Shown here in pieces: positions 21,201 to 36,136 of a stretch of 64,000 nucleotides of DNA. How positions within the stretch are numbered: the stretch's first letter is position 1; every line of letters starts with the position of its first letter. The notes below the pieces were generated by a model. That model was not told the DNA's origin. It was given only the letters and a program-made list of their open reading frames with translations, and did not search any database. Both the position numbers and the translations under genes were made by a program. Source of the stretch: Chloroflexota bacterium (lineage in GTDB: Bacteria > Chloroflexota > Anaerolineae > 4572-78 > J111). Location: contig BOKF01000034.1 of NCBI GenBank assembly GCA_016860845.1, positions 1-64,000 of the forward strand, in the 5' to 3' direction.

Positions 21201-22322
21201 ATGAAACGAGGTTAGCAAGCCGGCAATGTTGGAACATTGGTTATTTAAGTTGCTTTTATCATAAGGAAACAAGGTGTCCCAGGCGCTGGAGCGCGGCGTG
21301 AGAGGGTAAGCGAAACAGGTAAAATCGTCAGCCAACTTCGTCAGGCTGGCTGAGGCATCCCAGGTATTTGCCGTTCCATGCACAGCCTTGATGACGCTGG
21401 GGTACTTGCTCGCCGGTCCACTATAATAACGGAGCGCCTCGTCGCCATCAAAAATGTAAGAGGAATATTGGCTCAGATCATATTTGTCAGCATATAATCT
21501 AATCTTCAGATCCTGATCCGGGTCGGCTGATTTACCGTAGAACCAAACTCCAGTTCTATCTTTGCTGTTGTTACGATCCCCATCATATAAAAAAGCGGCA
21601 ACCTGCGGACCGGTCAAACCGCTCGGCATTTCGAAAATAACATCCACAATTAAGGTATCGGTCCAGCCCTGCCCATTACTGGCCGTGAGCTTATATTTTC
21701 CAACCGTACCCCCTGAGGGCGCTGTCACCGTCCAGCCGTTGCACTCGGCTCCGCACGAATTTCGGGAGCTGATGGTCAACGGGCTTAGAACGCCAGCCCC
21801 AAGTCCATCGCTCCAACTCAGGGTAACAGAGTAGCCATCCACGATACCAGGGCCGTTAACATTAAAGGAAGTGCCACGGCGAATCACCGCTGTTTCGTCG
21901 GTGATCATTTTGTTTCCATGGGGTCTGAATAAGCCCGAGCGCCTAACCGGGGTCCAGGCAAAGCTATATTCCCCTGTCTGGAAAGAATCTTCATAAACAA
22001 TAGACAGGCCAGGGTCTTTGTTACTATTCGGGTTAGTGTTAAACAACATCTCTTCCCCATCGGTCAGACCGTCGTCGTCACTATCCGTGTCGTAAGGGTC
22101 AGTCTGGTAAGGAACGCCCCCCCCCAGGTCGTTAACCCGCTCGTTGAGCCAACCTCCGGTTTCGACTGCGTCTGACAGACCATCCAAGTCTGAGTCCGGG
22201 GGCAATGCTGCGCCATCAGCCTTGGCCAAAGGGATAGCTGCGGAGAATGAGATTAATGTCAAAACTACAACAATAGTTAGGCAAAACATTGGTAGCAGGG
22301 ACATCTTAGGATATTTGCTCAT
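18231..22322 (-). CDS. Giant secreted transglutaminase-like protein with thrombospondin type 3 repeats (copy B)
   Basis: This 1363-residue paralogue of the gene at 14028 aligns along its whole length. It has a signal peptide (8-35), two N-terminal DxDxDG loops, a transglutaminase-like core with C363 (NNQCSNIAGLLTSFHRSVGIPAR), a fibronectin III domain, beta-sandwich domains, six C-terminal DxDxDG repeats and the tail KRLFLPAILK. GATGAGGAAAA precedes the ATG. The two genes are 105 bp apart, so this is a tandem duplication, yet the synonymous sites and linkers differ visibly. The promoter at 22441-22474 with the direct-repeat box drives it. The C367/C363 context is conserved, suggesting retained catalysis. 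Role in matrix assembly is inference. Confidence 0.82.
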   Translation of the reverse strand: MSKYPKMSLLPMFCLTIVVVLTLISFSAAIPLAKADGAALPPDSDLDGLSDAVETGGWLNERVNDLGGGVPYQTDPYDTDSDDDGLTDGEEMLFNTNPNSNKDPGLSIVYEDSFQTGEYSFAWTPVRRSGLFRPHGNKMITDETAVIRRGTSFNVNGPGIVDGYSVTLSWSDGLGAGVLSPLTISSRNSCGAECNGWTVTAPSGGTVGKYKLTASNGQGWTDTLIVDVIFEMPSGLTGPQVAAFLYDGDRNNSKDRTGVWFYGKSADPDQDLKIRLYADKYDLSQYSSYIFDGDEALRYYSGPASKYPSVIKAVHGTANTWDASASLTKLADDFTCFAYPLTPRSSAWDTLFPYDKSNLNNQCSNIAGLLTSFHRSVGIPARMIAVDHRTSNFDTSTEIWTRPNSSSSYNWHTARSFAINEGDPNNYGYCTVTHVSGGYRLRLDRTQYGRQYYRPYSQVWPSRDTASNGNEWMIVTADENWLLSELGGAADYKWVVWDKYNIARQPWLQTLAMPYWNANYVVDQEPTNVGDPDTTNPPAWNQTPPSEWIPNTPPDTPTLFPIANPDGDGTYIVDWSSVSNVQYYRLEEDNDPTFDNPVVRYYGNTSQSTVTGTPAGTWYYRVNAENGAGTSESWSNIQSVTVGGGIMAALAAPSASSADTASSATFASGKVHLGNILGEYGLDEDGDGQFEALVIQVNVKANQAGSYWIQGQLGTDDSSFIGTGGVMAVDEFKVDLQQGEQTVNLFFDGLSISRTRINGPYKLMYLLITDVDNPGPDDFVNNALDYKNNSYVTAAYKFNDFKTLDAMFTRNYVDRGIDNNKDGSAEAVEIDVALDIYRPGSYTVTGELYDNNEVLLGEATWSGAAFQATLRFDKIAGTSGPYELRNLRLSRSDGQGIEAIERAYTTQNVSQGQPVTGFAAVPMQRGDSGGLGPLGVGITTTTYLDFGEDTNSNGKYDTLQIKVGVQVVTPDDYQLEGWLVDEQGNLVSWTHTGPVTLGAGNQEIILSYNGRAIADYMQTHAQTTQKFTLVALKLYTGLLKWNEINDEVDVAYTTGTYALTQFEPALKGKVPLQDYMENGAAKWTTVQSPWAIAESGEFFSSAHAWRAANANAALGAILDLSNMANATLKFRSYHRLDNNGDTGYLKLSTNGNDWQTIATFTDAVESWKTRVIDLSSFANQNPVYLRFELNSAGGNSNDFWDIDDVVVVGDLYDTDGDGLSDQEEAQYGTDPTKPDTDGDGISDSWEVNNGLDPLDPDGNNGPLGDPDNDGLNNQQELNYGTDPLNPDTDGDGMSDGWEVENGFNPLVNDANSDADNDGLTNGDEFQLGTDPNNADTDGDTIPDGQDPEPGKITKRLFLPAILK

Positions 22323-22494: not shown

Positions 22495-23832
22495 TCAATT
22501 TAAGGTAACCGGCACATCAGAGGTGGTGACTAAAAATTTCCCGGCGGCGGTCATAGGTATTTCATCGGTGACGCTGATAATCAACTCAACTGACTCATTT
22601 TCTATGAGGGGTAAACATTGTTGACGAACCGAGTTAATTATGTCCTCACAGGGCCGTTCTTTTATTTGCAGCACAATTTCGATTTTATTGGGGGCATGCT
22701 GGTGAATTCGAAATCTTTGAATACCAGGTACATAATGTAGAACTACCCGACGAAAGACGCCCCCATACAGCAGTTTACCACTGGGCAAGGTGAACATGCT
22801 GGTTGCCCGGCCCATTAATTCTTGTAAGACGGGCAATCCCCGCCCACAAGAACAGGGTTGGCCGGCCAGGGCGGCGATATCGGCCATTTGATAACGAATG
22901 AGCGGCATGCCAAAATTGTAAAGAGGGGTAATAACTACTTCACCCATTTCGCCTGGAGAAACGGGCCGCCCATCCGCTAAAATCTCCACAAAACAAAAGT
23001 CGCTAAAGATATGTTTGCCGCCCTGGGGACATTCAGCGGCAATAATCGCCCCTGCTTCATGGCTGCTGTAACGATCAGAAACCGGGCATTGGAAAACTCG
23101 TTCAATCACCTCTCGCTCGTGGGGCCAAACAGGTACGGCCGTTGTTTGCACCATCTTTGGCCGGATGTCTCTGATATTTTGTTGAGCCAGGTATTCAGCA
23201 AACAGGTAAATAACATTCCCATAACCCGTAATGATAGTTGGTTTCCAGCGGCCTAACATCTGCGCAAACTGTTGAAAGATTTCAGGGGTCACAGTATATC
23301 CATCCAGCCAGCGTTCACGCTTAATCCGCTGCATCAGGGTTAAGTGGGAGCCATCTTGGCGCCGGCCCCAAATCCAGGCTATTTTATCACCCATATCACC
23401 CCCAAACCAGCGGTAAGAGCGAGTAAAGGCGGCAATATCGGCAGAACTATAATCCTGTGCTCGATATAAAACCAGCGGTTCTCCCGTAGAACCACTGGTT
23501 GCATCACGAGTCATTCTACTTTTGTCGTAATTAGTCGCCAGGAGCAAATCACCATTTTGGCGAATATCATCCTTACTTAACAGGGGAATTTGGTAAAAAT
23601 CCTTTTCGGTTTGAATATCTTGGGGGGTCAAACCGATTTCCTGAAATCGCTGACGATAGAAAGGGACATGGGTGTAAGCATGTTCCAATAATTTTTTGAG
23701 CTTTTGCCATGAAATCTGCTGTAACTCCTCGGGATTTAACCATTGATTGCGCTCAAATTCTTGAATATACCTGCGGGTACGAAATTCACCCGGCTTCATC
23801 AATCTCATGAACTGGTATAATTGCTTATACAT
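22495..23832 (-). CDS. CapK/phenylacetate-CoA ligase-like adenylate-forming enzyme
   Basis: This 445-residue member of the phenylacetate-CoA ligase (PaaK/CapK) family activates a carboxylate with ATP. The adenylation loop DATSGSTGEPL, the later SDRYSSHEAGAIIAAECPQGG, IRYQMADIA and a Cys-rich GQPCSCGRGLP are typical. CapK-type members occur in capsule loci and probably activate an acyl or amino-acyl group for transfer to sugar; the substrate here is unknown. It overlaps the upstream acetyltransferase gene by 28 nt, and GGAG lies 11 nt before the ATG. It is the last gene of a run that includes FemAB-like transferases, which could use its product. Confidence 0.82.
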   Translation of the reverse strand: MYKQLYQFMRLMKPGEFRTRRYIQEFERNQWLNPEELQQISWQKLKKLLEHAYTHVPFYRQRFQEIGLTPQDIQTEKDFYQIPLLSKDDIRQNGDLLLATNYDKSRMTRDATSGSTGEPLVLYRAQDYSSADIAAFTRSYRWFGGDMGDKIAWIWGRRQDGSHLTLMQRIKRERWLDGYTVTPEIFQQFAQMLGRWKPTIITGYGNVIYLFAEYLAQQNIRDIRPKMVQTTAVPVWPHEREVIERVFQCPVSDRYSSHEAGAIIAAECPQGGKHIFSDFCFVEILADGRPVSPGEMGEVVITPLYNFGMPLIRYQMADIAALAGQPCSCGRGLPVLQELMGRATSMFTLPSGKLLYGGVFRRVVLHYVPGIQRFRIHQHAPNKIEIVLQIKERPCEDIINSVRQQCLPLIENESVELIISVTDEIPMTAAGKFLVTTSDVPVTLN

Positions 23833-24491
23833 CTCTCATTCTCCATTAATGGATAAGGTCTATAGACAAGGCGGTCCCACAAAAGAATTCGCGTATGGCA
23901 GCTCTCCCCGACACAAACATAGCCAGCTTTTTCCGCCAATTTAATGGCAGGAATATTACCTTTGGTGCAATTAATCACCACCCGCTTGTAGCCCTGTTCT
24001 CGCAAAAGCTGTAACCGGTTGGCAACCAGCCGTTGAGCGACTCCTGTACCTCGATAAGCTGGTACCACAAATAATTCGTAAAGGGTGGCTTCGCCAGGCG
24101 CCAAGGGGACATGCACCCGATTTGTCTGAGGGTCAATTTTATAGGCAATCCAACCCCAGCCCGCCAGTTGTCCCTTATGTAAGGCAACAAACGCTGCATC
24201 GCCGGCAGCAAAGATTCGGCGGAAGCGGACAGCTTCCTTTGGGCTAATCCAGGGGTCCAGGAGCGCCAGCTCTTCCTTGTTTTTCAATTGGCGAACAATT
24301 AAGTCGGGTAGGGGTGCTGGAGGTGGTTCGCCGGGTAAGAGTGTTTTGGCCAGAACTACTGACTCAAGCCGGGTATAAAAGATACGGATCACCGTTTGGC
24401 CCAATTCAGCCAGTCCTGCCCGCCCGCCTCTTTCCTTGAATGTTTTCAAGCAATCAAGCAGGAGGTAAATTAATGATTTGAACAGACGCAT
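23805..24491 (-). CDS. GNAT N-acetyltransferase
   Basis: This 228-residue protein has a GNAT acetyltransferase core in its C-terminal two thirds. The acetyl-CoA loop appears in VVPAYRGTGVAQRLVANRLQLL, followed by GYKRVVINCTKGNIPAIKLAEKAGYV. The first 60 residues are a hydrophobic/helical stretch (LFKSLIYLLLDCLKTF) that could attach it to the membrane. It lies between a FemAB-like gene and the CapK-like gene, overlapping the latter by 28 nt, so a role in modifying an activated sugar or amino sugar of the exopolysaccharide is likely but not shown. Confidence 0.8.
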   Translation of the reverse strand: MRLFKSLIYLLLDCLKTFKERGGRAGLAELGQTVIRIFYTRLESVVLAKTLLPGEPPPAPLPDLIVRQLKNKEELALLDPWISPKEAVRFRRIFAAGDAAFVALHKGQLAGWGWIAYKIDPQTNRVHVPLAPGEATLYELFVVPAYRGTGVAQRLVANRLQLLREQGYKRVVINCTKGNIPAIKLAEKAGYVCVGESCHTRILLWDRLVYRPYPLMENERCISNYTSS

Positions 24492-24528
24492 CCTAATGGT
24501 TTCCTTACCCGTTATTGGCCGGGGTCAT

Positions 24529-25623
24529 TTATCCGCTTCTGAGGGAGTCCATCCATGTAGCAAGGCGATCAAGCACATCGGCGTTAAAGAATTTGTTGTT
24601 CAGCGAGGTATACATGAGAGGAGAATAAACATAATCATAGGCGCCTAGGTAGTACACCACATTTTCACTGAAGCTGCGTTTGAATTGATACACTCCCCAT
24701 AGACCATCGCTCCGCTCTTCTTCGGGTAGTGTTTTTCCCTCACTCACCTGCTGGCCTACTTCAGAGGGTATTCCCCATAAGTCATAAGTGTGACAATCAT
24801 GCGTCTTGGCCCATTTGATAGCTTCCCACACCAGCAAATGATTCGGACGCAGGTTTCTATAGGCATTGGATGAACTGGCATGGAAATCGGCGGCATGATG
24901 GCCCATCCGAAAGGCAGTCCGAACGGCTAACAATTGATCCTGATAGTAAGCCATTAGCAGGACAACCTGATCACAGGCCACAAAAGTCTGCCACTCTTCC
25001 TCATAATAATCCAGAACACGGGGAGCAAATTGGCCGCGCCGGCCGGTTATCTGCATTAATTGATGAAAAGCGGGAAGGTCTTCTCGGCCTCCTACTCGGA
25101 CGGTGACTCCTTGTTTAGGGCCATACCTGATGTTGTACCGTGTTTGCCGGGGTATCTGCTGTAAAATATCATCTAACTTCGGCTTTAAATCCATAATAAT
25201 TGTAGCCTGCGGCTGATTGGCATACCGGCTGGGCTGAAAATGATGTTGCTTTAACAATTGGTGGGGCGTCCCATGGTAAAGTAAGGGCGGCTCAATTTTC
25301 AAGAAGACAGCTCGATAATCTTTAGCAATCCGATGTAATTCAGAGAGCAGATAAGATGTTACGTCTTCATCTAGCCAATTACCTATAGGTCCCCGTGGGA
25401 TATAAGCGACACTCCCTACCCGCAGCGGCAGAGATTTGACCAGCATCTGCGCCCCGGCTATGATCTTGCCCTGTCGCTTTACGGCCACCCGAAAGGCTTG
25501 CCAGCCCAATTTTTCTTTGAATTCACCCCATTCCCAGGCTTGCAGCAAAGCAAAAGAGGGTTGCTGAGCCACAAAGGCGTTCCACTCGTCACGACGGTCG
25601 GTAGTAATGTGGTCAACGTGCAT
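24529..25623 (-). CDS. FemAB-family aminoacyl/acyl transferase (copy 1)
   Basis: This protein of about 364 residues resembles peptidoglycan interpeptide bridge enzymes (FemAB), which transfer an amino acid from aminoacyl-tRNA, built from two GNAT-like domains. Motifs such as LLQAWEWGEFKEKLGW at the N-terminus, QTRYNIRYGPKQGV and YRNLRPNHLLVWEAIKWAKTHDCHTYDLWGIP near the C-terminus are characteristic. The ATG at 25623 is used; a GTG lies one codon upstream. Preceded by GAGAAG. In exopolysaccharide loci such proteins are thought to decorate polysaccharide or lipid-linked intermediates. It is one of three FemAB-like genes between 24.5 and 32.8 kb, which have little obvious similarity outside the fold. 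Confidence 0.82.
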   Translation of the reverse strand: MHVDHITTDRRDEWNAFVAQQPSFALLQAWEWGEFKEKLGWQAFRVAVKRQGKIIAGAQMLVKSLPLRVGSVAYIPRGPIGNWLDEDVTSYLLSELHRIAKDYRAVFLKIEPPLLYHGTPHQLLKQHHFQPSRYANQPQATIIMDLKPKLDDILQQIPRQTRYNIRYGPKQGVTVRVGGREDLPAFHQLMQITGRRGQFAPRVLDYYEEEWQTFVACDQVVLLMAYYQDQLLAVRTAFRMGHHAADFHASSSNAYRNLRPNHLLVWEAIKWAKTHDCHTYDLWGIPSEVGQQVSEGKTLPEEERSDGLWGVYQFKRSFSENVVYYLGAYDYVYSPLMYTSLNNKFFNADVLDRLATWMDSLRSG

Positions 25624-25778
25624 CACTTATCTTCTCACCCTGCTCTTAAAAGTTGCAATAGATTGCTATCATCAGTGCTATCTAAAATTCCAAACCTTTT
25701 TCTGGCCCAGGGTAAGATTCCTTCAATAGAAATTTTTGAGCTGGGAAAATTTTGTACCGCATCTATCGAGCTAATTGA

Positions 25779-27722
25779 TTACAGGGCTGGTCTAATCAGG
25801 AAAAAGTCCATAAACTCGTAGCTTTTCATGATGGAAACACTTTTTTCACCAATAGATTTCTCGGTAAACTCTCGTACATCACCCCGCTTAATTCCTTTTC
25901 CGTAGACAAGATAGGGAACCAGGGCATCGGTGTGGGTTCCATCTGTGGAAAGGGTATAATGATCTGGTAACAAGGCGATTCTATAATCACCGGGATAATT
26001 ACTTTCCAGAAAGTCGAACAATGGTTTAATTAACTCCCGATCAATTTTTTCAAGAATTTGAGCCTTACCTTGTGGGTTTAAGACGTGGGCTTCTTCATCA
26101 GGCGCATTAATATGGATATAGACCAAGTCATGATAGCGCAAACTATTCTTAGCATATTCCAATTTTGCCTGTAAGTTTGTATCGCTGTAGCCGGTTGCAC
26201 CGGGGATTTTTTTGGCGTCCAGACCGGCAGCATAGGCTATTCCTCTTAAAAAGTCCAACCCACAAATCACGCTGCCGGTAATGCCATACTTTCTTTGAAA
26301 TGCAGGCAGCCAGGGTACAGAAGATGCGCTCCAGATAAAAAGCATATCTGCCGGCGTGTGAATCGTTTGATTGAGCTTTTTAATCTGATCAATAGAGTCA
26401 AGCATAAACTCATTCAACTCTCTAGCTAATTTTTCCGCCTCCGGAGTTTTGCCAGCCAGGAGTAGCTCATCTATGGATTTGCCGATATTATGATGGGGTT
26501 CCGACGAGATAATATCTTTGGCATGACCCGATACATGCTTGACGATTAATAAATTTCGATAACTTTGGCCGGGATAAAGCTTATAATGATCATGGGGGAC
26601 GGCCAAATTATCAATGATTAGTCTGGCTTGCTGATCAGTAATGTTATTTGAGGTAAAATCTTTAATCTTGCGATCTTGTAACTTAATAAGATTGCAACGC
26701 ATCGTAATATCATTATCTTCAAGAAAAATATTCTGGGCGAGTGCTTCAAATGATGATCTACCATGGGGATAGTACCGGGTAGGATTATAACCAAGCACAC
26801 CCATATTAGCCACGATGCTACCAATCGGCAATCCGGGATAAATTGTTCGCATCAACCCGGTCATCCCCTTTCGGGTCAGTTCGTCAATAGTAGGCAGGTG
26901 AGCCGCTTCAAGGGGAGTTTTGTTACCCAAAGCTTCAATAGGTACGTCCGCTGCCCCATCAATAATTACAATGACATATTTAGTAAGCCTAAATTCGGCC
27001 TCTGCTATTCTTAAATCATCAAAGTTATCTATTTCAATCCATTTAGAGCCAGTAATATCAAAAACGTAAATAGGCTCTTCTTCCAGATGTTTAGCAATGA
27101 CCAAGTCATAATAGATTTGAACTTCACCTTTCCGCACATCCTCGCCAAGCCATTGCGCCAATAATTGACCATATCTAGGGGTAATTTTTAGAACGCCAGT
27201 TGATTTGTATTGATTATTCTCATATTCTGTTAGTCGCTCTCGTATAATTTCTAACGATCTGATTCTACCTTCTGGATCAGTAATGGACATACTACCCAGA
27301 AAATCTGAGGTAAACCGATTTACAACCCAAAAGGTTTTGTCATCCGGGGTTTGTAATACCCGTCGGAAGATACTTTGGTCGAAGAGGGTATCACCCTCGA
27401 TAAGTAGAACCCCGTCTTTTAAGTAATGACGAGCTAACCAGGCAGAATACATAGAGTTAGTTTCATCATAGATTTCATTCCAAATAAATTCTATTTCTAA
27501 GGGACCAAAGCGTGATCCAATTCTTTGGACAATTACATTGCCCAAATAACCTACTACAATCACCGCTTTTTTAAAGCCATTTTGAACCAAAGAGTCCAGG
27601 GTCCGTTCAAGGATCGAACGGCCATTTACCTCAGTTAGACACTTGGGAACCTCATCGGTAAGCGGTTTTAAGCGGCTACCTAAACCCGCCGTTAGAATAA
27701 CCGCAGTGCTGATTTGAGCCAT
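25779..27722 (-). CDS. Nucleotidyltransferase fused to archaeal-type phosphoglycerate mutase-like domain
   Basis: This 647-residue protein has two full enzyme domains. Residues 1-245 are a sugar-phosphate/phosphocholine-type nucleotidyltransferase: TAGLGSRLKPLTDEVPKCL (11-29), IEGDT with D111, and WIEIDNFDDLRIAE. Residues 248-647 are an ApgM-type cofactor-independent phosphoglycerate mutase/alkaline-phosphatase-superfamily domain: metal ligand D255 (IIDGAAD), GNKTPLEAAHLPTID, catalytic serine S302 (PIGSIVANMGVLGYNP), D542/H546 (DEEAH), D587/H588 and H597. Both active sites look intact. It precedes a CDP-alcohol phosphotransferase gene, so a pathway making a CDP-activated phospho-compound is likely. 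Notably AT-rich. GGAG precedes the ATG by 9 nt. The frame stays open for 47 codons after the TAA. Confidence 0.85.
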   Translation of the reverse strand: MAQISTAVILTAGLGSRLKPLTDEVPKCLTEVNGRSILERTLDSLVQNGFKKAVIVVGYLGNVIVQRIGSRFGPLEIEFIWNEIYDETNSMYSAWLARHYLKDGVLLIEGDTLFDQSIFRRVLQTPDDKTFWVVNRFTSDFLGSMSITDPEGRIRSLEIIRERLTEYENNQYKSTGVLKITPRYGQLLAQWLGEDVRKGEVQIYYDLVIAKHLEEEPIYVFDITGSKWIEIDNFDDLRIAEAEFRLTKYVIVIIDGAADVPIEALGNKTPLEAAHLPTIDELTRKGMTGLMRTIYPGLPIGSIVANMGVLGYNPTRYYPHGRSSFEALAQNIFLEDNDITMRCNLIKLQDRKIKDFTSNNITDQQARLIIDNLAVPHDHYKLYPGQSYRNLLIVKHVSGHAKDIISSEPHHNIGKSIDELLLAGKTPEAEKLARELNEFMLDSIDQIKKLNQTIHTPADMLFIWSASSVPWLPAFQRKYGITGSVICGLDFLRGIAYAAGLDAKKIPGATGYSDTNLQAKLEYAKNSLRYHDLVYIHINAPDEEAHVLNPQGKAQILEKIDRELIKPLFDFLESNYPGDYRIALLPDHYTLSTDGTHTDALVPYLVYGKGIKRGDVREFTEKSIGEKSVSIMKSYEFMDFFLIRPAL

Positions 27723-27764: not shown

Positions 27765-28496
27765 CTAATGGGTCTCTCGCCAATAATATTGCCCAAATAT
27801 GACCAAAAGTGCTACGTTTGAGATAATCGCCCAGATTTGAACAGCCAAAAAAGGAAACCCTATAAGAGAGGCAAGGATAAGTAAATTTGTGTCCAGCGGA
27901 GCAAATATATGAAAGAGGCTGCGAATACGTTTAATCAGAGATTTATTATTTTGATATTTGTCTTGGTCTGCTATATTTTTTGGTGAGCTGTGTGGTAGCA
28001 GATGATACTGCATATAGTAATAAGTATTCGTACCCAACATGGCCACCATCCCAATCAGCCAGGCCCCATTACTCCCGCCTATCCCAATCTCACCTAACGT
28101 GGCTCCAATAATGAGCAAATTATTGGTAAACCAGTGGCCCAACATATCTAATTTGTCACCTACTACAGAGGTACGTTTGCTGGCACGCGCCACAGGACCA
28201 TCACAACAATCAAGGATATAGGAGGCAATAATCAGTAGCGCAACAATTTGAACGCCATTGGTCGGGTGAAACGCCAGGACAAATGAAGCTAAAACAAGAC
28301 ACCCAATAAACAAGAAAGTGATTGTATTAGGGGCAATATTCCACCGCAAAAAGACCCAGCTCAAATGGGGCGAGATTTTTCCTGCCAAGCGGTGAACAGG
28401 TGCTTCATTTCCTGTATAGGTAACTTGACGTATTTCCTTAATCGTCCAATGTTTTCTAATAGGAGTTTCTTCTGATCTAAGTAAAATATTCGTCAC
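27765..28496 (-). CDS. CDP-alcohol phosphotransferase with altered final motif residue
   Basis: This 243-residue integral membrane enzyme of the CDP-alcohol phosphatidyltransferase family transfers a phospho-alcohol from its CDP derivative to an acceptor. The family motif is at 96-121: D96-C-C-D99-G-P-V-A103-R104, eight residues, G113, D117, and then H121 where the canonical fourth Asp should stand. At least five membrane helices are visible (55-77, 83-97, about 130-150, 190-215, 220-238). Start is GTG with GAGGAA 8 nt upstream. It follows the nucleotidyltransferase-ApgM fusion in the same transcript (gap 42 bp), which probably makes its CDP substrate. It is AT-rich like its neighbours. Acceptor unknown. 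Confidence 0.85.
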   Translation of the reverse strand: MTNILLRSEETPIRKHWTIKEIRQVTYTGNEAPVHRLAGKISPHLSWVFLRWNIAPNTITFLFIGCLVLASFVLAFHPTNGVQIVALLIIASYILDCCDGPVARASKRTSVVGDKLDMLGHWFTNNLLIIGATLGEIGIGGSNGAWLIGMVAMLGTNTYYYMQYHLLPHSSPKNIADQDKYQNNKSLIKRIRSLFHIFAPLDTNLLILASLIGFPFLAVQIWAIISNVALLVIFGQYYWRETH

Positions 28497-28508
28497 GATG
28501 TATGTTCC

Positions 28509-29210
28509 TCAATTGGGTAACTTATTTATTTTTTTAGCAAAATTAATAGTGGCTTTAGCATACTCTGTGCTTGAGTCAATAATTTTTAGCCCATTCAAAT
28601 TCGTACAACCCTCATAAGCAATAGAGAATTCAGTACAAGCTAGCAAAATAGAATCAATCTCATTGCTCATTTTCTGAATGACAGCTTCCAATCTACTTTT
28701 TGATGCAGGACACAAAACATTGGTTAATTTGATTTCCTCAATAGCCGACCAGACAATATCATTATCTGTCTCCAATGGATAGACAGCTTCAGGAATATAC
28801 TTACTGTAAGTTTTTTGGGTCAGGGTAACATATCCCCCTAAAACTAGAGGTCTGCTCTTATTATTGGTAACAACTTGGGACACAATTTCAATCATGTTGA
28901 GCCAGGGAATACGAATTCTATCCGCGACCTGTGGATAGAAATGATGAGCAGAATTACAGGGAACTGTAACAAAATCAGCACCGATACTAGCTAAATTATT
29001 GATACTTTCGATCATACCTGGAACCGGGCTGGCTTCGTTATATAAGATGGCCCTCGTGCGGCTGGGAATTTTGACGTTGTTATCTATGATGATTCTCAGA
29101 TGTTCCCAATCCTTTCGCGCAGGGGTCATAGAGACGAGTCTATGAAAGAAATCAATAGTAGTAAAAGGCCCCATGCCTCCTAAAATGCCGACAATCTTCT
29201 CCTCATTCAT
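28509..29210 (-). CDS. Aspartate/glutamate racemase family protein
   Basis: This 233-residue protein of the cofactor-independent Asp/Glu racemase superfamily has both catalytic cysteines: C85 in VPCNSAHHFY and C192 in LACTEFS. The N-terminus MNEEKIVGILGGMGPFTT is typical of aspartate racemase. It would make D-Asp (or D-Glu) from the L-form. The ATG at 29210 is chosen over one at 29225 because GGAG lies 6 nt before it; it overlaps the upstream FemAB-like gene by 8 nt. Placement among three FemAB-like transferases suggests a D-amino acid is incorporated in a surface polymer. The region is clearly AT-rich (16 of 60 bases G or C at 28501-28560). Confidence 0.85.
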   Translation of the reverse strand: MNEEKIVGILGGMGPFTTIDFFHRLVSMTPARKDWEHLRIIIDNNVKIPSRTRAILYNEASPVPGMIESINNLASIGADFVTVPCNSAHHFYPQVADRIRIPWLNMIEIVSQVVTNNKSRPLVLGGYVTLTQKTYSKYIPEAVYPLETDNDIVWSAIEEIKLTNVLCPASKSRLEAVIQKMSNEIDSILLACTEFSIAYEGCTNLNGLKIIDSSTEYAKATINFAKKINKLPN

Positions 29211-30435
29211 GTGAAACTCCTTCAAATGTCAGCTTGGAGATTTTTGTTTTTTTAATCCCTGGATTTCCATCAAAGAAATCGGCCACCGAACAAATAAGCA
29301 ACTTTTCTAAGCCAGAGGTAGCATACTGTTTCTCCCAGTCCTGCCGGGTTGCTTCTGTGACCTTATCCGGCTCATCGGTGACAATAAGTCCCTGTAGCTG
29401 TCCGCGCTCACCTATGATAATAAGTGGGTTATCTTTGAAAAATTGGCGGACGGCCGGGGTATCCCGCTTCACTTTGAGCCAGATTCGTTGTTGAGACGTG
29501 TCAGAACAAGTTGCGGCTGCGCCCCAGCGACGTTTATGTTGAAGAATTCCATCCGCCAGGTGAGGGGCAGAATCCCCAAAGGAAACATAATCATAACCTT
29601 CCTGATTAGCCCAATGGGTGATAGCGTAGTAATAGGCGCCCAGGGCGCCTTCTCGCATCAATTGTTCATCAGCATTGACGACGCCAATTAATCGAAACCT
29701 AATGATCCGCCCCTGGGGATAAGAAAGCCCACCTGCCACATACTGACCATCTCGCTTGATCAAATGCAGGAAACCTCGTTGGAAATTTTGACGAGCCTCT
29801 TCTACAGACATAGGCGAGGCTAATTCGTGATGTCGCTGGGCCATCGTCGGGCTGTACATTTGATGGTAGAACATTTCAAAATCTTCTTCACGGGGTGAGA
29901 CCTCATATTCGTAGCCATATTTGCGCACCAAACGAAGTTGGTAATCACGCACATTTTTATGAAAACGACGTTTCACGTCGTCCCAGTCTCCTCGCACATT
30001 GAGCAACATTCTGACGAAAAAGGGTTGTACAATTGCATTTTGGCGAGGCAAACTGCGAATGAGATACTGGCTGCCAAGAACAATAACCAGGTCATTACCT
30101 GGTAAATTGGTCAGAGTGCCGGCTTGCCACAAGGCCACTCGGCCAATCTCTTTGATGGTTGGCGCTTCCGCAAACAAGTTCCTGACCAGGGTTGGCCGAT
30201 AGTCTGTAAAGGGATTATCCAGGAGTCCTGACAAATAATCTAAGCCAACATAATCAACTGTCAGCGGACCGCCCTGGTTGTGGCCAGATAGCCGGTAGAT
30301 GGTCAGGTATGGCCGCAGCCGCATCAATTCTTTTGCCCCATGCAGATAGGGGATGACGCTCCTTTGAGCCCAATCGGGAGCGCGAAGTTGTGCTTCTACC
30401 CAAAGATCACGACTTAGCTCAAATAAGCTCTTCAT
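29203..30435 (-). CDS. FemAB/GNAT-fold acyltransferase (copy 2)
   Basis: This protein of about 410 residues has a double GNAT fold of the FemAB type in its central part: HKNVRDYQLRLVRKYGYEYEV, DGQYVAGGLSYPQGRIIRFRLIGV and EGALGAYYYAITHWANQEGYDYVSFGDS, the last being the GNAT core with the order seen in FemAB-like proteins. The N-terminal 90 residues and the C-terminal 70 are not recognised. The ATG at 30435, with AAGGA upstream, is preferred to one at 30492; the gene then overlaps the upstream glycosyltransferase by 17 nt. It differs strongly from the other two FemAB-like proteins, so it may use another donor or acceptor. Function unproven. Confidence 0.7.
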   Translation of the reverse strand: MKSLFELSRDLWVEAQLRAPDWAQRSVIPYLHGAKELMRLRPYLTIYRLSGHNQGGPLTVDYVGLDYLSGLLDNPFTDYRPTLVRNLFAEAPTIKEIGRVALWQAGTLTNLPGNDLVIVLGSQYLIRSLPRQNAIVQPFFVRMLLNVRGDWDDVKRRFHKNVRDYQLRLVRKYGYEYEVSPREEDFEMFYHQMYSPTMAQRHHELASPMSVEEARQNFQRGFLHLIKRDGQYVAGGLSYPQGRIIRFRLIGVVNADEQLMREGALGAYYYAITHWANQEGYDYVSFGDSAPHLADGILQHKRRWGAAATCSDTSQQRIWLKVKRDTPAVRQFFKDNPLIIIGERGQLQGLIVTDEPDKVTEATRQDWEKQYATSGLEKLLICSVADFFDGNPGIKKTKISKLTFEGVSHE

Positions 30436-31723
30436 TAAATCCTTGCTCCTGCTGTTTGATATCTCGTGCTCTTTGAGTAGGTAGTGCATCAATCAGTCCT
30501 ACATATTCCACGCTGAGTTTGGCCCAATTGTAACGTTGATTAAAGCTATCAGCATTTTTAGCCAGGGTTGCCCGGCGAACCGGGTCGTCGTAAAGCTTCA
30601 AAATGCTGGCAGCCAGCTCATCAACATTTTCCGGGGTAAAATACTCCACCATCGTCTCATCAAAATAAGCTTCAATGGCTGGGGTGCGGGCCACAATAGA
30701 TGGCACCCCCAGAGCAGTATATTCCATCAATTTGGTGGGTAAAATGCCATCGGTAAAAATATCTCGACGATAGGGAACCACCCCTACATCGGCGGTTCTT
30801 ATCAAATTCGGAAGTTCAGAAGAAGGTAATAGTAGGCCGGAACTGAATTGCACATGCTCCTTCAGATCTAACTCATCCACCAGCTTCATTAGTGTCTCCC
30901 GATAATCGCCGCCCCCATGGATCATCAGGTGGATTTTAGGTATTTTGTAGCGCACCAAGTTAACCGCCCGGACTAGCGAATCTATTCCATATCGTTGGGT
31001 AATATTACCGTGATAAATCAAACGGAAACAGTCATTGTTTCGGGGGGATAATTCACCGATCGAGGGCCGCTGAAAGATGCGGTCGTCGGCCACATTCATG
31101 ACTACACAGACCTTTTCGGCCGGAACACCGCGTTGGATCAGGGTGTTACGCCACAACTCGGTGACGGTAATCACCTTATTGGCAAAGCGGCAGGAGATTT
31201 GCTCTTGCCAGCGAATTAGACGGATAGGCCAGCTTGACCAATCGCTATCCTTAAAGCGGGCAGCGTAAAATTCGGGCATCAAATCATGGATGTCAAGGAC
31301 CAATTTGGCCCCCATCAGTTTGGGTATTAATCCGGCAAAGACCAAAAAATCAGGTAAATTATGTACCTGAACTGTTCTATAACGACGACGCCAATGTAAA
31401 CTGGCTAGTTTACGCGAAGCCAGAACAAAAAAAGTTAAATATTCCAGTAATTGAGCCTTAGATCCGCCGCTTTTATTGCGCTTCACCGGCAGGCGATAGA
31501 TATTAACCCCATCTCTGGTTTCAAATTCTGGTCCTTTTCTGGCCCACAGGCAGATTACATCTACCTCGTAGCCATGTTTTACCAACGCCAGAGCCTGTCG
31601 CTCAACGCGAGTTTCACCGAGGGGGTAATAGGCATGGACAACCATGCAGTGTCGTTTGTTCCTGCTTTCATTTTTGTCATCAGGCAAAGGTGGTCCAGCT
31701 TCAAGCGGCGATAATGTTTGCAT
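30419..31723 (-). CDS. GT4-family glycosyltransferase
   Basis: This is a cytoplasmic GT-B retaining glycosyltransferase of about 434 residues. The N-terminal domain has VVHAYYPLGETRVERQALALVKHGYEVDVICL, and the donor-binding C-terminal domain has LIYHGNITQRYGIDSLVRAV and the E-x7-E-like KLMEYTALGVPSIVA. It resembles WcaL/LPS-core type enzymes. Start is ATG at 31723; an in-frame TTG at 31735 has no better site. The gene overlaps the downstream FemAB-like gene by 17 nt, indicating translational coupling of sugar addition and acyl modification. Donor sugar unknown. Confidence 0.88.
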   Translation of the reverse strand: MQTLSPLEAGPPLPDDKNESRNKRHCMVVHAYYPLGETRVERQALALVKHGYEVDVICLWARKGPEFETRDGVNIYRLPVKRNKSGGSKAQLLEYLTFFVLASRKLASLHWRRRYRTVQVHNLPDFLVFAGLIPKLMGAKLVLDIHDLMPEFYAARFKDSDWSSWPIRLIRWQEQISCRFANKVITVTELWRNTLIQRGVPAEKVCVVMNVADDRIFQRPSIGELSPRNNDCFRLIYHGNITQRYGIDSLVRAVNLVRYKIPKIHLMIHGGGDYRETLMKLVDELDLKEHVQFSSGLLLPSSELPNLIRTADVGVVPYRRDIFTDGILPTKLMEYTALGVPSIVARTPAIEAYFDETMVEYFTPENVDELAASILKLYDDPVRRATLAKNADSFNQRYNWAKLSVEYVGLIDALPTQRARDIKQQEQGFNEELI

Positions 31724-31755
31724 TTTGGTATCCAATTAAATCATAAGGGTAAAAA

Positions 31756-32763
31756 TCACAAGAAACGCCGGTAAACCTGATAACCCTGGTTACTCAATTT
31801 GAGCAAAGTAGGCTTATGCACATAAACATTGCGCCCAAAATTTACCAGATCACCGCCAAATTTGGCCTTGAAATCGCGCACCCCATATTCTTCATCCGGT
31901 TTGCCCGCACCGCCAAAATCATAAACGTGATAACCGTTATTCGCTCCCCACTCAAGAATGTGCCAGATCAACATTTCGTTGGGCAGATAATCGCTGTACG
32001 CCCGGTCTGAGCCGCCATACCAGCCATAAATCACATTTTTATAGAGCAGCTCAATCGAACAAGCAGCGGTCACGCCATTGACCTGGGCCAACAAAAACTT
32101 GGCCATTCCCTTGGCATACAACTCGTTGAAAGCGGCCACAAACAACGAGCGGTCGGCCAGCGGTACCTGGGCGTTGCTGTAGGTTTTCTGCAAAATATCA
32201 TACCAGTGTTCTAACTCGGTCAGGGTGGTGGCCTCACTCATTTGGACGAAGTTATCCCGCAAGCCTTTACGAATTTTTTTGCGGGTACGCTGGCCGATGC
32301 TTTGTAAAACATCCTCAGCCGGGCGGTTTAGGTTAATCAGGTAATTGAGATGTCCTTCAAAGAGAAAGCCGTATTCAGTGAGGAGGGACTGCAAGTCACT
32401 TAAATTGTAGAGATTGCGCAGTTCGGTAAAGAGGGCACTGCCTTTGGCTTCACGCTTGTACGTCTGCAAAAGCAACTCTAGCGCCTTTTTACCCTCCGGG
32501 TTATCGGCGCAGAGGATGCTGCTGTAGGCAATAGCTCGGGTAGTTAACTGCCGCAGCAGGCCATCCATCAGTGTGACTTGTATCGGCAGCAGGAGGGCCA
32601 ACGGATAGCCACTGTTATCTACAGCAGCCCACAAAGTTGGCCGGTGGTTTCTAGTCTGAGCGAATACTCTGAACATCTCAGGAGTATGGAAAATGCTGCC
32701 GCGCGGGTTGTTATTGACAAAATCTTGCCAGAGATCTTCAGCTAAACTTTGCACAAGGTACAT
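31756..32763 (-). CDS. FemAB-family aminoacyl/acyl transferase (copy 3)
   Basis: This 335-residue peptidoglycan-bridge (FemAB)-like protein has the double GNAT fold. Characteristic stretches are LWQDFVNNNPRGSIFHTPEMFRVF at the N-terminus, IGQRTRKKIRKGLRDNF in the centre and SDYLPNEMLIWHILEWGANNGYHVYDFGGAG near the C-terminus. It is the first gene after the direct-repeat promoter at 32932-32965, with a 5-prime leader of about 160 nt. It heads an operon of nine genes ending with the CapK-like enzyme at 22495. Likely role: transfer of an amino acid or acyl group to a polysaccharide repeat unit. Confidence 0.85.
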   Translation of the reverse strand: MYLVQSLAEDLWQDFVNNNPRGSIFHTPEMFRVFAQTRNHRPTLWAAVDNSGYPLALLLPIQVTLMDGLLRQLTTRAIAYSSILCADNPEGKKALELLLQTYKREAKGSALFTELRNLYNLSDLQSLLTEYGFLFEGHLNYLINLNRPAEDVLQSIGQRTRKKIRKGLRDNFVQMSEATTLTELEHWYDILQKTYSNAQVPLADRSLFVAAFNELYAKGMAKFLLAQVNGVTAACSIELLYKNVIYGWYGGSDRAYSDYLPNEMLIWHILEWGANNGYHVYDFGGAGKPDEEYGVRDFKAKFGGDLVNFGRNVYVHKPTLLKLSNQGYQVYRRFL

Positions 32764-32931
32764 TGTGTGTCGTTGATGGACCGTCCTTTTAAAATTAATC
32801 CTCGTTAAAATCTAAAAATCTAATGGACCCAAATTTAATGAGCCGGCATTCCTGGGTGTGGGCTTCGTTTTGCAGCCAAGGATACCTCACCCTCAAAAAT
32901 TGAATCTACTGCAATTTTTTTTGCTGAGTTT

Positions 32932-32965
32932 ACTATAGCACGAAAAGGTTTGAATTTAGTTTGAA
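32932..32965 (-). promoter_or_regulatory. Direct-repeat activator-type promoter, copy 2
   Basis: On the minus strand TTCAAACTAAATTCAAAC (32948-32965) carries two perfect TTCAAAC 7-mers 11 bp apart; 10 bp later is TATAGT (32932-32937). Transcription would start near 32925 and run into the FemAB-like gene at 32763. The 223-bp gap shows nothing else except an A/T-rich heptad-like patch near 32805. Confidence 0.65.
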
Positions 32966-32986
32966 TATGTTAAGAATTTAGTTCGT

Positions 32987-34273
32987 TTATCTATTCAGAG
33001 TGCGAAGTCCATAATCCCACAAAGTCAGCGCATCTATATCCCCGGTGACACAAAGGGCGCTACGTGTTCCATTAGGCCAGCGTCCCAACCGTAAAAGAGG
33101 CCAACTACCATTTTCAATTTTACCTAGCAGGGGGCGTTCGTCTTCCGGCTTAAACTCAGGGTGATGTAAATATAAAGGATAATTATGAGAGTCTTTACTT
33201 ATCTCGATGAGATAACCTTGCTGTCGCAGGAAATCAACAAGCGCCTTGGCGCTTTGAGGCGAAATCCCGATAACCGGTCGCTGGGTGGCAGCGATAGTAA
33301 ATGTTTTGCTCATAACCTGATCATATTGATCAAACCAGGGCCTGGTTGGACCATCAACTTCTAAATTTCTGGCTAAAACAGTGACCGATTTGGCCCCATC
33401 TACTATTGCCTCAAACTGGTCAGGATGAGTGGATGGATTAATCGTCAGCTTGGTTTCAGTCCGCTCAAGCCACCAGGTGGCAATTTCATCCAGGCGGGCA
33501 ATCCAAACGGCGGGTGAAAGGGCGCGAGCCTGAGCCAGAGTAGCTGCCAACGGTTCCTTTAATAAGTCAATGCGCTCTGGATGCAACCCCAGGGTAAAAA
33601 GTTCACCCAACTTGTAAGTCTGCTCCAATATATTCAGCCAGATTTCACTCTGGGCTTTCATACTGGCTAATTGCAGCCGATCTATAAGTCCTTCATCATC
33701 AGGGAGACAATAAGGAATGCGAACCAATCCATCTTGAAAGCTGGGTAAAGCGGGGTAACTACTGGCCTCTCGAGCGCCGTAGAAATTAATAACTCGCTGA
33801 TAGGCCGGCGTATCGTACCCGTTGAGAACATCCCAGGTCAGACCCTGGCTACTGTCGAACAGAAAATGGTGATGACGCAGAGCGGTCAACGTTCCTTCGT
33901 TCCAGCGTAGATAGGGACACCGAAAGCCGCGGAAAGGGACCTGGCTCGTTTCAAAGGCAGCGATAGCTTGATCAAGCCGGGCTATTTGTTCCTCTGCTGT
34001 TAAGCGGGAGTGGTCAATATGAGTATAACCATGAATAGCAAATTCAATACCCTGTTGCGCCAACTTTTGGATGGTGGCGCTATTTCGCCTCAAGGCTACG
34101 GCAGTGATAGGAAAGGTAGCACTGGCGTTGTAGGTTTGGAGTAAACGAGCAAAGCGTTCCAGGATATTATCCATTTTATCTGAAGTTAAACCATAACGGG
34201 CGGTAATTACTCTGGCCCGGGCCAGGGCATTTTTGAAGCCCTTGCCTTTAGCAGCTATCGCAAATGGATTCAT
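32987..34273 (-). CDS. Polysaccharide deacetylase-like protein with rearranged motifs
   Basis: This is a 428-residue protein of the NodB/polysaccharide deacetylase fold. The zinc motif H-x3-H appears in IHGYTHIDHS and the R-x-P-Y motif in GFRCPYLRWN, followed by FDSSQGLTWDV. The first motif, normally TFDD before the ATF strand, is absent: the N-terminus has YGLTSDKM instead. A TGDIDALT stretch near the C-terminus (LCVTGDIDALTLWDYG) could supply it, as if circularly permuted. There is no signal peptide, so it would act in the cytoplasm, unlike secreted deacetylases. It lies 18 bp after a GHL10 lipoprotein gene. It might deacetylate a lipid-linked sugar. Confidence 0.68.
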   Translation of the reverse strand: MNPFAIAAKGKGFKNALARARVITARYGLTSDKMDNILERFARLLQTYNASATFPITAVALRRNSATIQKLAQQGIEFAIHGYTHIDHSRLTAEEQIARLDQAIAAFETSQVPFRGFRCPYLRWNEGTLTALRHHHFLFDSSQGLTWDVLNGYDTPAYQRVINFYGAREASSYPALPSFQDGLVRIPYCLPDDEGLIDRLQLASMKAQSEIWLNILEQTYKLGELFTLGLHPERIDLLKEPLAATLAQARALSPAVWIARLDEIATWWLERTETKLTINPSTHPDQFEAIVDGAKSVTVLARNLEVDGPTRPWFDQYDQVMSKTFTIAATQRPVIGISPQSAKALVDFLRQQGYLIEISKDSHNYPLYLHHPEFKPEDERPLLGKIENGSWPLLRLGRWPNGTRSALCVTGDIDALTLWDYGLRTLNR

Positions 34274-34291
34274 TTTTAATTCCCAAATTTT

Positions 34292-36073
34292 TTAATTAGA
34301 GTTGATATTGGATGAAAAAGGGCCGTTCCCCAGGGCTTCCCAAACTTCGTCACTGATCCCGGCGAAATCGAAAAGAATAATACCCCTTGAACCGCTAGCG
34401 CGGGCCAGATCAACCTCAGCGAGTATCTGAGTTGATGCCTTAACTTCTCGACTGCTTTCAGAAATGAAAACACTTAGCCCTACCATCATCTCATTGGGGT
34501 CATCTATCACTGACTGCCAATCGGCCAAAACGGGCGCTAAAGGCTTGTCTTTTTCCACATAGAGCCGCGGAATGATCAAATCTACATATTCCCCTTCCAG
34601 CCAGGACTGCCAATCCAGAAAATACTTTTCGGCCAACGCCTCTTGACTGGCCGCCACCGTAATTGTTACCAATACTTCCGGGTCTTCTTGCTTAACCTGC
34701 TGGTAAACCTCCTGCAACAGGAAATTAATCCCCTGTTTACGAAAAGTTTTCCAATGGGCATCTCGGGTCAGGTAGTCTTCTAATTGTAAACCGCGCTCAG
34801 TGGCAGGGATTAAGGCATGCTGCCCCACAGGGATTAATAATCCGGTTCTGTCAAAGTGTCTACCTTGCGCGTTCACCCCAAGGAGGGCCTGAATATTTTT
34901 ATCTTTAATGGAAGGGGTTGGTCCATCAATAAAAATCACCCCTCCACCTTGTTGCACAAAATCAGCCAGGTCGCTCGCCGTTTGGGCAGTGATCAAATAG
35001 ATACCGGGCATAATGAGAATATCATTTACCTCAAGCGTTGTAATATCTTCTTCACCTATCTCAACCGGTGATACGCCGATATCCTCCAGCCAGGTAAAAA
35101 CGGTATCAAAATCACCGTAACCATATTTTTCGGCATTGGTTTGAGAACGTAAAATGTAAAGGTTGCCTGCCTCGTTTTGCAGGTAATTAAGGCTACGGCG
35201 CAGGATTTCGCTGCTGGCCGCAACAGTTCGTTCATCGGCCTGCCAATTGAATAGAATTACTTTGCCAGTTCCATAGTTATTAAGCAATATAGCCGGTTGC
35301 CCATCATCAAACACAGCTAATGCTTGAGCCGTAGTTACACCCGCCAAGGGATTACCCCTGAAACTGCCGTAGGCCGGCAAGTCGGTATAGCGCAATGCCT
35401 CTAAGTCAAGATTGTACGCCTCTTTAAAGGCATTAGCGCTATAGGCATCAAAGCCCCATTTCCAACCGGGGTGGGGATAACGGGTGTAATCAAAATGGAT
35501 GCCATCTACTTTGTACTTTCTCACCATCTCCAAAGCAAGGTCAATGATAAATTGCCTGACATCCGGCCGGTTATAATTGAGCCAATTTGCTTTCTCACCA
35601 TCCAAACTTAGCATGCCCCATTCAGGATGCTGTGACAGAATCGGCCCATCTGTTCCCCCAACCGGACCGGCCACAAGCCAGGCATGCACCTGAATATTGC
35701 GTTGGTGAGCGGCCTTTACCAGATAGGCCAGGGGATCAAAGTCCGGCTCAACTCTTTCATATTTTTCAACTAAGTCACTGTTATATAGAGCTTGTCCCTG
35801 GACGAAGGTATTAACAAATAGGGCATTAAAATGTCCGATTTCAGCGCGTTTAAGGACAGCATCAATTTCTTTCTGGCTACTAACAGATCTGGCCTGTACC
35901 CATACTGCTCGTATCTCTGGCTGACTCGATCCTCTGGTAGGCATTGTTAAGGAATCCTGTGCGAGAGGGGCAAGAGGACCAGGTGAAGAAAGATGATCAT
36001 TTCTATTCACCAAGCAAGCGCCGAGAGTCAGCAAAAAGGTTAAAGTTACTACAATAATAAAAAGTTGTCGCAT
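34292..36073 (-). CDS. GHL10-family glycoside hydrolase-like lipoprotein
   Basis: This protein of about 593 residues starts with a lipoprotein signal (MRQLFIIVVTLTFLLTLGAC), the cysteine being the lipid anchor. The catalytic domain matches the GHL10/DUF187 family: EIRAVWVQARS, GHFNALFVNTF, HAWLVAG and KYKVDGIHFDYTRYP. A ThuA/glutamine-amidotransferase-like insertion (NDILIMPGIYLI) lies in the middle, and WLEGEYVDLIIPRLY is the second half of the barrel. The ATG at 36073 is chosen because the signal peptide starts there; in-frame ATGs at 36082 and 36112 exist. The promoter at 36078-36108 places this ATG 6 nt after the -10 box, so the mRNA may be leaderless. Confidence 0.78.
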   Translation of the reverse strand: MRQLFIIVVTLTFLLTLGACLVNRNDHLSSPGPLAPLAQDSLTMPTRGSSQPEIRAVWVQARSVSSQKEIDAVLKRAEIGHFNALFVNTFVQGQALYNSDLVEKYERVEPDFDPLAYLVKAAHQRNIQVHAWLVAGPVGGTDGPILSQHPEWGMLSLDGEKANWLNYNRPDVRQFIIDLALEMVRKYKVDGIHFDYTRYPHPGWKWGFDAYSANAFKEAYNLDLEALRYTDLPAYGSFRGNPLAGVTTAQALAVFDDGQPAILLNNYGTGKVILFNWQADERTVAASSEILRRSLNYLQNEAGNLYILRSQTNAEKYGYGDFDTVFTWLEDIGVSPVEIGEEDITTLEVNDILIMPGIYLITAQTASDLADFVQQGGGVIFIDGPTPSIKDKNIQALLGVNAQGRHFDRTGLLIPVGQHALIPATERGLQLEDYLTRDAHWKTFRKQGINFLLQEVYQQVKQEDPEVLVTITVAASQEALAEKYFLDWQSWLEGEYVDLIIPRLYVEKDKPLAPVLADWQSVIDDPNEMMVGLSVFISESSREVKASTQILAEVDLARASGSRGIILFDFAGISDEVWEALGNGPFSSNINSN

Positions 36074-36074
36074 T

Positions 36075-36136
36075 AATCTCATCACTAAGGCTATACTCAA
36101 GGTTAGTTCCAATTACCCTACAACTACCATACGTTT
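36075..36136. repeat. 62-bp intergenic repeat, copy A
   Basis: This stretch matches 37456-37517 at 55 of 62 positions with no gaps. Both lie directly upstream of minus-strand genes (34292 and 36281). It contains the second-class promoter. The rest of the 207-bp gap up to 36280 shows no gene or clear terminator. Confidence 0.7.
36078..36108 (-). promoter_or_regulatory. Second-class promoter (AACTAACC type), copy A
   Basis: On the minus strand AACTAACC (36101-36108) is followed after 16 bp by TGATGAG (36078-36084). The ATG at 36073 begins 6 nt beyond the -10 hexamer, giving a probably leaderless transcript. TAGGGTAA lies just upstream of the -35. It may be used by an alternative (ECF-like) sigma factor. 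Confidence 0.45.

Follow-up and report, generated by a model that had tools for sequence, protein, structure and literature searches.

A stretch of 64,000 nucleotides from a Chloroflexota bacterium (contig BOKF01000034.1; hereafter the window) encodes a protein that joins a nucleotidyltransferase (NTase) of the LicC/PntC type to a metalloenzyme domain of the ApgM fold. We propose that this NTase-ApgM fusion is a hydroxy-amino-acid kinase combined with a cytidylyltransferase, a reading to which we give a probability of roughly 0.55. The proposal builds on what is observed directly: the fusion, its fold, a distinct clade of ApgM domains, the loss of basic residues, recurrent neighbour genes and the exchange of the ApgM half for SerK-like halves. 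The lines of evidence are weak singly. Jointly, they point to a kinase and cytidylyltransferase that would feed a transferase of the cytidine diphosphate (CDP)-alcohol type. The gene and its parts are as follows; the loci, proteins and genomes compared carry L, P and G numbers.

25779..27722, minus strand: whole fusion gene, 647 amino acids, ATG start, one open reading frame (ORF)
26988..27722, minus strand: LicC/PntC-type NTase half, residues 1-245
25797..26981, minus strand: ApgM-fold metalloenzyme half, putative amino-acid kinase, residues 248-642

The fusion and its two halves

The fusion had been claimed in a preliminary description of this DNA, and it is confirmed, since both halves lie in the single 647-residue frame on the minus strand. 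It recurs in other genomes, with both halves present in 103 of 104 database clusters among the matches listed. Its members occur in bacteria and archaea, and NTase-ApgM is an old family. A search for a mobile element found no record among 72,556 plasmids or 50,697 phages that covers 80% of the fusion query. The sources that name the protein call it phosphoglycerate mutase, a label that is probably wrong for this family.

The NTase half passes its Pfam cut-offs. It contains the signature motif GLGSRLxPLTxxxPK together with D111, E230 and D232, which we take to be the metal residues. G13, G15, P26, K27, D111, E230 and D232 are invariant in all 44 fused rows examined, and R17 is nearly so. The nearest PDB match is LicC by sequence, and LicC together with PntC by structure. 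The N-terminal half is, at the level of family, a LicC/PntC-type cytidylyltransferase of the NTP_transferase fold, and it presumably uses cytidine triphosphate (CTP).

The residues of the ApgM half were compared in the 44 fused proteins, 12 proteins from unfused loci, 11 single proteins, 12 TIGR02535 proteins (all over the TIGR02535 cut-off) and 27 ordinary ApgM proteins. The last set comprises 2 PDB entries and 25 proteins from relatives of the window's genome, which were so classed by family match and residues, their activity not being proven. The metal and nucleophile set listed in the preliminary description (D255, S302, D542, H546, D587, H588 and H597) is present in the window protein. 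Each of the seven positions is kept in 42-44 of the 44 fused rows and in 12/12 unfused-locus proteins, and the whole set is kept in 40/44 fused rows. Position 546 is E, not H, in 25/25 ordinary relatives. P0052, P0055 and P0071 form one clade of fused proteins with a decayed set.

Conservation of this kind bears on the idea that only the NTase half is active, while the ApgM half acts as a hydrolase or has a purely structural, inert role. In its favour, metal ligands or the nucleophile are missing from four fused rows, beside key NTase residues that stay invariant. However, the set is whole in the remaining rows and intact at each position in the unfused proteins, and an NTase lies near the unfused gene in 8 of these 12 loci. 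We regard it as the least probable of the alternatives.

Four basic residues set ordinary ApgM apart. All 27 of 27 ordinary proteins have R356, R357, R464 and K539, which we take to bind phosphoglycerate. This basic set is found in 0/44 fused rows, where 464 is W (44/44), 539 is N (44/44), 356 is F in 43 and A in 1, and 357 is T in 42 and S in 2. The fused domains resemble TIGR02535 instead. W464 is found in 44/44 fused rows and D490 and E543 in 42/44 each, and all three are found in 12/12 TIGR02535 proteins. Among 158 columns conserved in ordinary ApgM, 12 switch to one same residue in both fused and TIGR02535 proteins. The net charge at positions 356, 357, 464, 539, 490 and 543, which were picked after inspection of the table and whose pocket location is presumed, is +4 in 27/27 ordinary proteins, -2 in 40/44 fused rows and -3 in 12/12 TIGR02535 proteins. 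Such a charge switch at six candidate pocket positions would fit an amine-bearing acceptor.

Family models and phylogeny also place the domain apart. It passes the apgM model TIGR00306 (353 bits, cut-off 320) and fails the TIGR02535 model (339.2 bits, cut-off 446.3). A tree of 72 domains, built by a quick method, included 22/44 fused, 11/12 unfused-locus and 13/25 relatives' proteins. In this tree the fused and unfused-locus domains, 10/11 single proteins and a G006 protein form one clade with a Shimodaira-Hasegawa-like approximate likelihood ratio test (SH-aLRT) support of 100, and TIGR02535 and ordinary ApgM fall outside. The G006 relative (L056) has a long branch and other neighbours. No protein in the 19 genomes searched exceeds the cut-off of the mutase equivalog model. 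Of its four top scorers, three come from fusion-host genomes: L114 and L115 carry the complete basic set, and L116, from a third such genome, carries three of the residues and G464. The top score (375 of 489 bits) belongs to L113 from G355, a genome with no fusion, yet this protein has a TIGR02535-like residue set. The four residues thus divide the ApgM family more cleanly than the model score, and what they mean is inferred.

According to the preliminary description, the mutase half makes a phospho-acid for the NTase, for example 2-phosphoglycerate. A maker of a phospho-compound is plausible, but 2-phosphoglycerate as its product is at odds with the missing basic residues. A true phosphoglycerate mutase half that supplies 2-phosphoglycerate (or a phosphonate) for the synthesis of CDP-glycerate is very improbable. 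The general apgM model is passed and the metal set is kept, as expected of a mutase. However, the four basic residues of every ordinary ApgM are gone from every fused row, the clade is distinct, and the domain is swapped with SerK-like halves. In addition, R356, R357 and K539 are all present in a second ApgM protein, encoded apart from the fusion, in each of the host genomes G338, G339 and G343.

The closest named kin of the ApgM half appears to be a suspected amino-acid kinase whose activity is unproven. In the available text of PMC7311316, curators proposed homoserine kinase for TIGR02535, and mutants of its member BT2402 need threonine in minimal medium. The same text gives ThrB low confidence in 29 of 148 organisms, and TIGR02535 is present in 15 of those 29. 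The TIGR02535 loci L086 and L089 contain aspartokinase-like and threonine-synthase-like ORFs (seen by eye, with no model run). In the window the neighbours are polysaccharide genes rather than threonine-synthesis ones, and this setting disfavours a homoserine kinase of the threonine pathway as the main job of the fusion. ThrB is over its cut-off in 5/14 host genomes and TIGR02535 in 1 more, with neither in the other 8, a weak test of a threonine-pathway job.

Exchange of partners and recurrent neighbours

A search with the NTase half only returned 89 proteins, and among them are NTases with partners other than ApgM. The partner is a methyltransferase in P0121, P0122 and P0128, a CobD-like pyridoxal phosphate (PLP) enzyme in P0123-P0127, a HAD-IIA hydrolase in P0129-P0132 (several named as archaeal), a SerK-like half in P0119 and a phosphoenolpyruvate (PEP) mutase in P0133. 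In P0134 it is choline-kinase-like, with a weak NTase match (E 4.5e-7). Since the CobD-like, methyltransferase, PEP mutase and choline-kinase-like partners could make an NTase substrate, we read the ApgM half likewise as a substrate maker. The HAD-IIA partner is not obviously a maker of a phospho-substrate. By analogy, this exchange of partners is the main support for an ApgM half that makes the substrate of its NTase.

In the archaeal loci L019, L020 and L022 the NTase (45% identical to the window's in L019 and L020) is joined to a SerK-like half. The half in L019 matches NF053625 (E 1.5e-11) and the PDB entries 1vk1 (E 1.6e-8) and 5x0b (E 6.4e-7). In P0119 the NTase is 66.5% identical to that of the NTase-ApgM protein P0046, and a tree of 54 rows nests the two together with support of 99/99; the second half of P0119 is SerK-like and 66% identical to that of L019. 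SerK TK0378 phosphorylates free serine and does not accept threonine or homoserine, as stated in the available part of PMC5120207.

Another exchange is seen in G001, the nearest genome compared, which has 24% of sampled words in common with the window. Its locus matches that of the window, with nine flanking proteins 92-97% identical. Between them, the window has a racemase, a CDP-alcohol transferase and NTase-ApgM. G001 has in this slot (L100 8001-11871) a CDP-alcohol transferase 66% identical to the window's, an NTase-SerK-like fusion, a second, MobA-like NTase and a DUF711 protein. The NTase of this fusion is 25% identical to the window's, and its C-terminal part matches SerK (E 3.4e-7) and SbnI (E 2.9e-6). 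The slot seems to trade whole cassettes among close relatives.

Neighbour genes were counted within 6 kb on the same strand in 19 ApgM-clade loci (the window, L001-L009, L011-L017, L024 and L042), some of which are close copies (L013/L042 and L014/L015). L010, where no ApgM ORF was called, and L057 and L056, which hold the ApgM relatives of G005 and G006, were excluded. The neighbour profile models were built from these 19 loci, and thus the counts are descriptive and no test. An NTase is fused or nearby in 14/19 loci. A CDP-X transferase from one of two unrelated families is found in 13/19: five are of the CDP-alcohol type, seven are TagF-like, and that of L003 is TagF-like by Pfam only. The link to the adjacent CDP-alcohol transferase drawn in the preliminary description is thus supported as plausible. 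An Asp/Glu-type racemase is present in 10/19 loci (a fragment in L024) and a methyltransferase in 11/19. In 30 control loci, which have a related NTase but lack an ApgM gene of this clade, the corresponding numbers are 6 for the CDP-X transferase, 0 for the racemase and 1 for the methyltransferase; the CDP-alcohol transferases of L019-L022 and L027 lie nearby but on the opposite strand.

The neighbours have features of their own. Racemase and methyltransferase are fused in one protein in L004 and L005. Both Cys residues and the R and K aligned to aspartate racemase 1jfl, which we presume to have the same role here, are kept in 8/8 aligned racemases. The motif of the CDP-alcohol transferases, whose catalytic form we take to end in DxxxD, ends in DxxxH in 9/11 proteins from ApgM-, SerK- and CobD-type loci (the window, L007, L008, L010, L019, L020, L022, L027 and L100); L009 has DxxxD. 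A Wzt-type ATP-binding cassette (ABC) protein adjoins the NTase in L012-L015. L017, from the named isolate Clostridium ihumii, has an ApgM-clade protein, and a LicC-like NTase and a choline/ethanolamine kinase lie 8-10 kb off.

Ethanolamine is the main rival to serine because of the CobD-like and methyltransferase neighbours in kin of the fusion. In this alternative the same two-step machine would act on an alcohol without a carboxylate, such as ethanolamine, choline or another amino alcohol. The ApgM half would then be a kinase of the ethanolamine type, the methyltransferase would make phosphocholine-like bases, and the product would be CDP-ethanolamine or CDP-choline. The match of the NTase to LicC and PntC agrees with this. 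The L014 methyltransferase has plant phospho(methyl)ethanolamine N-methyltransferases as best PDB matches (E 1e-9), a resemblance that also speaks for the N-methylation step of the amino-acid reading. A gene for a CobD-like PLP enzyme, which could convert phosphoserine to phosphoethanolamine, precedes NTase-SerK in L019 (TIGR01140, 134 of 290 bits), L020 and L022, and L018, L021 and L023 combine a CobD-like gene with an NTase that has no SerK half. The distant relative P0134 with its choline-kinase-like domain also fits. However, ethanolamine or choline leaves unexplained the racemase, which is recurrent at the ApgM loci, absent from the controls and twice fused to the methyltransferase, and the available text of PMC7311316 connects the nearest named relatives of the ApgM half with the synthesis of an amino acid, threonine. 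We therefore consider this alternative rather unlikely.

A different division of labour is suggested by PhpG, a CMP-phosphonoformate:3-phosphoglycerate transferase (CMP, cytidine monophosphate) with a related ApgM-fold model. Here the NTase half would act first and activate a phospho- or phosphono-acid with CMP, from which the ApgM half would then pass the group to an acceptor. B12-binding radical S-adenosylmethionine (SAM) genes lie directly after the fusion gene in L001 (11929-13383) and L003 (11949-13340). The protein of L001 scores 342 of 575 bits to the Sden_1168 P-methyltransferase family. L003 comes from genome G339, where a PEP-mutase-like gene, below the cut-off at 263.5 of 319.55 bits, lies some 34 kb away on the contig of the fusion. 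Nevertheless, the fusion domain scores 154.1 bits against the PhpG model NF038358, far under its cut-off of 545 and below its match to four other ApgM models, and the CDP-alcohol and TagF-like transferases would be left jobless. PEP mutase was not found in 34 scanned window ORFs (of 53 ORFs of at least 130 amino acids), and it is over its cut-off in only 2/17 genomes searched, on another contig than the locus. A PhpG-like reaction is improbable. The same searches disfavour the phosphonate pathway raised in the preliminary description, and the sub-cut-off gene of G339 keeps it alive for L003.

The window locus and the proposed pathway

The fusion gene is flanked in the window by the following genes.

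27765..28496, minus strand: CDP-alcohol phosphotransferase (PF01066; motif DxxDGxxAR...GxxxDxxxH), one gene upstream of the fusion
28509..29225, minus strand: Asp/Glu-racemase-family protein (TIGR00035, 132 bits, over 93; closest is cysteate racemase CuyB, 173 of 190 bits), with both Cys and the R and K aligned to aspartate racemase present
29203..36112, minus strand: upstream genes for a 429-residue protein without a Pfam match, a GT4 glycosyltransferase, a FemAB/GNAT-like protein, a polysaccharide deacetylase and GHL10, 92-97% identical to G001
22495..25626, minus strand: downstream genes for FemAB, GNAT and a PaaK-like ligase, 94.6-95.6% identical to G001

The polysaccharide locus of the window encodes a flippase, an O-antigen ligase-type protein, a Wzz-like protein, glycosyltransferases, a sulfotransferase, a deacetylase, a uridine diphosphate (UDP)-sugar dehydrogenase and FemAB. 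A 379-residue protein at 58286-59425 combines a Wzz chain-length domain with a GGDEF diguanylate cyclase domain. At 14028-22322, two neighbouring genes encode similar proteins, each about 1365 residues long, with transglutaminase-like and calcium-repeat-like stretches (by eye, no model run).

The pathway for which we infer substrate, donor, direction, step order, product and final acceptor would run as follows. A small alcohol that bears an amino group would be phosphorylated on its hydroxyl by the ApgM-fold half, which would use its metal-bound Ser302 and take the phosphoryl group from a nucleotide or PEP. L-Serine is the most likely acceptor, and homoserine or another hydroxy amino acid is less likely. 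Serine is favoured because the exchanged half is SerK-like and a racemase for acidic amino acids suits a phospho-amino-acid. From this O-phospho-amino-acid and CTP the N-terminal half would then make a CDP-amino-acid. The adjacent racemase would invert the anionic phospho-amino-acid, and the methyltransferase of relatives would N-methylate it. Finally, the CDP-alcohol phosphotransferase, or elsewhere a TagF-like enzyme, would move the phospho-amino-acid onto a polysaccharide or lipid of the cell surface that the Wzx/Wzy-type locus around the fusion produces.

Several points weigh against a hydroxy-amino-acid kinase, beside the limits of the charge comparison and neighbour counts given above. 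One or more metal ligands or the nucleophile are lost in P0026, P0052, P0055 and P0071. We know of no biochemistry on the ApgM half of such fusions. All SerK matches are modest (29.7-44 bits, cut-off 380; E 1.5e-11 to 3.4e-7), and the SerK-like part in G001 matches the free serine kinase 5x0b weakly (E 8e-4). P0119 comes from a single metagenomic contig and could be a chimera. The CobD-like decarboxylase adjoining NTase-SerK in L019, L020 and L022 suggests that the activated product there may be ethanolamine. BT2402 failed to restore an E. coli thrB mutant, according to the available text of PMC7311316. No CDP-X transferase lies within 6 kb in L001, L002 (a 3.3-kb contig), L005, L006, L016 and L017, and in L004 the last two Asp of the CDP-alcohol transferase motif, as we assume it, are replaced by E and N (by eye). 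Methyltransferase is absent from the window cassette, and the methyltransferases elsewhere are named by no curated NCBIfam model.

A broader picture can be drawn only tentatively. An ApgM fold may have turned into a kinase of free serine, or of a close hydroxy amino acid, with its own cytidylyltransferase. It would belong to a widespread exchangeable cassette that also contains the racemase, the methyltransferase and the CDP-X transferase. This cassette might make a CDP-D-amino-acid and decorate surface glycans or lipids with phospho-D-(N-methyl)-amino acids, perhaps sometimes as a cap read by Wzt transporters. If the kinase-cytidylyltransferase reading holds, it would add another fold to the free amino-acid kinases and a new activated amino acid to surface chemistry, with both proposed steps residing in one protein. 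It would also offer a way to probe what the TIGR02535 'homoserine kinase' does.

Comparison with known systems

We do not class the fusion as a mutase, TIGR02535, PhpG or PntC, since for each of them it failed a test of a defining feature. An ordinary ApgM (2zkt, 3kd8, 3idd) has the fold and the metal and nucleophile residues in common with the window domain. The window protein differs in that it lacks the four basic residues, is fused and stands in a surface-polysaccharide context. TIGR02535, the BT2402 family, has the same fold, likewise lacks the basic residues and has W464, D490 and E543. However, it is a separate clade, the window domain falls under its cut-off, and the available text of PMC7311316 describes it beside threonine-pathway genes.

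On the NTase side, the CTP:phosphocholine cytidylyltransferase LicC (1jyk/1jyl) has the fold, motif and metal residues of the N-terminal half but is not fused, and the choline kinase that goes with it, LicA, is an independent enzyme with a different fold. A LicC-choline kinase fusion in Treponema would be a precedent, although the papers found in a search for it do not show it. What appears to be new here is the ApgM-fold partner and the racemase/methyltransferase cassette; NTases of this type joined to another enzyme of the same pathway are already known. Neither the ApgM-fold partner nor the cassette was found in the open-licence PubMed Central (PMC) literature. A CDP-D-amino-acid building block was not found there either, and the word CDP-serine turned up in one paper, a steroid review.

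Known same-pathway fusions are PEP mutase fusions, Fom1 and PntC (available text of PMC6697681). The phosphonate cytidylyltransferase PntC-AEPT (6pd1/6pd2), to which the preliminary description refers, combines an NTase half with a fused partner from the same pathway, as NTase-ApgM presumably does. It differs in that its partner is a PLP aminotransferase and its pathway requires PEP mutase, which the scanned window ORFs lack. The closest analogues, ahead of PntC-AEPT, are NTase-kinase proteins, above all the NTase-SerK-like fusions (L019, L020, L022, P0119 and the G001 slot). These have a homologous NTase (45-57% identical; 25% in G001) and the same order of halves, and they lie near related CDP-alcohol transferases with the DxxxH ending. 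Their second half sets them apart from the window protein, since it belongs to the ParB/SerK fold and not to the ApgM fold. L019, L020 and L022 differ further in the CobD-like decarboxylase beside them, which was not seen at the ApgM loci, and in the opposite strand of the CDP-alcohol transferase. The characterised relative of their SerK-like half is the free serine kinase SerK/SbnI.

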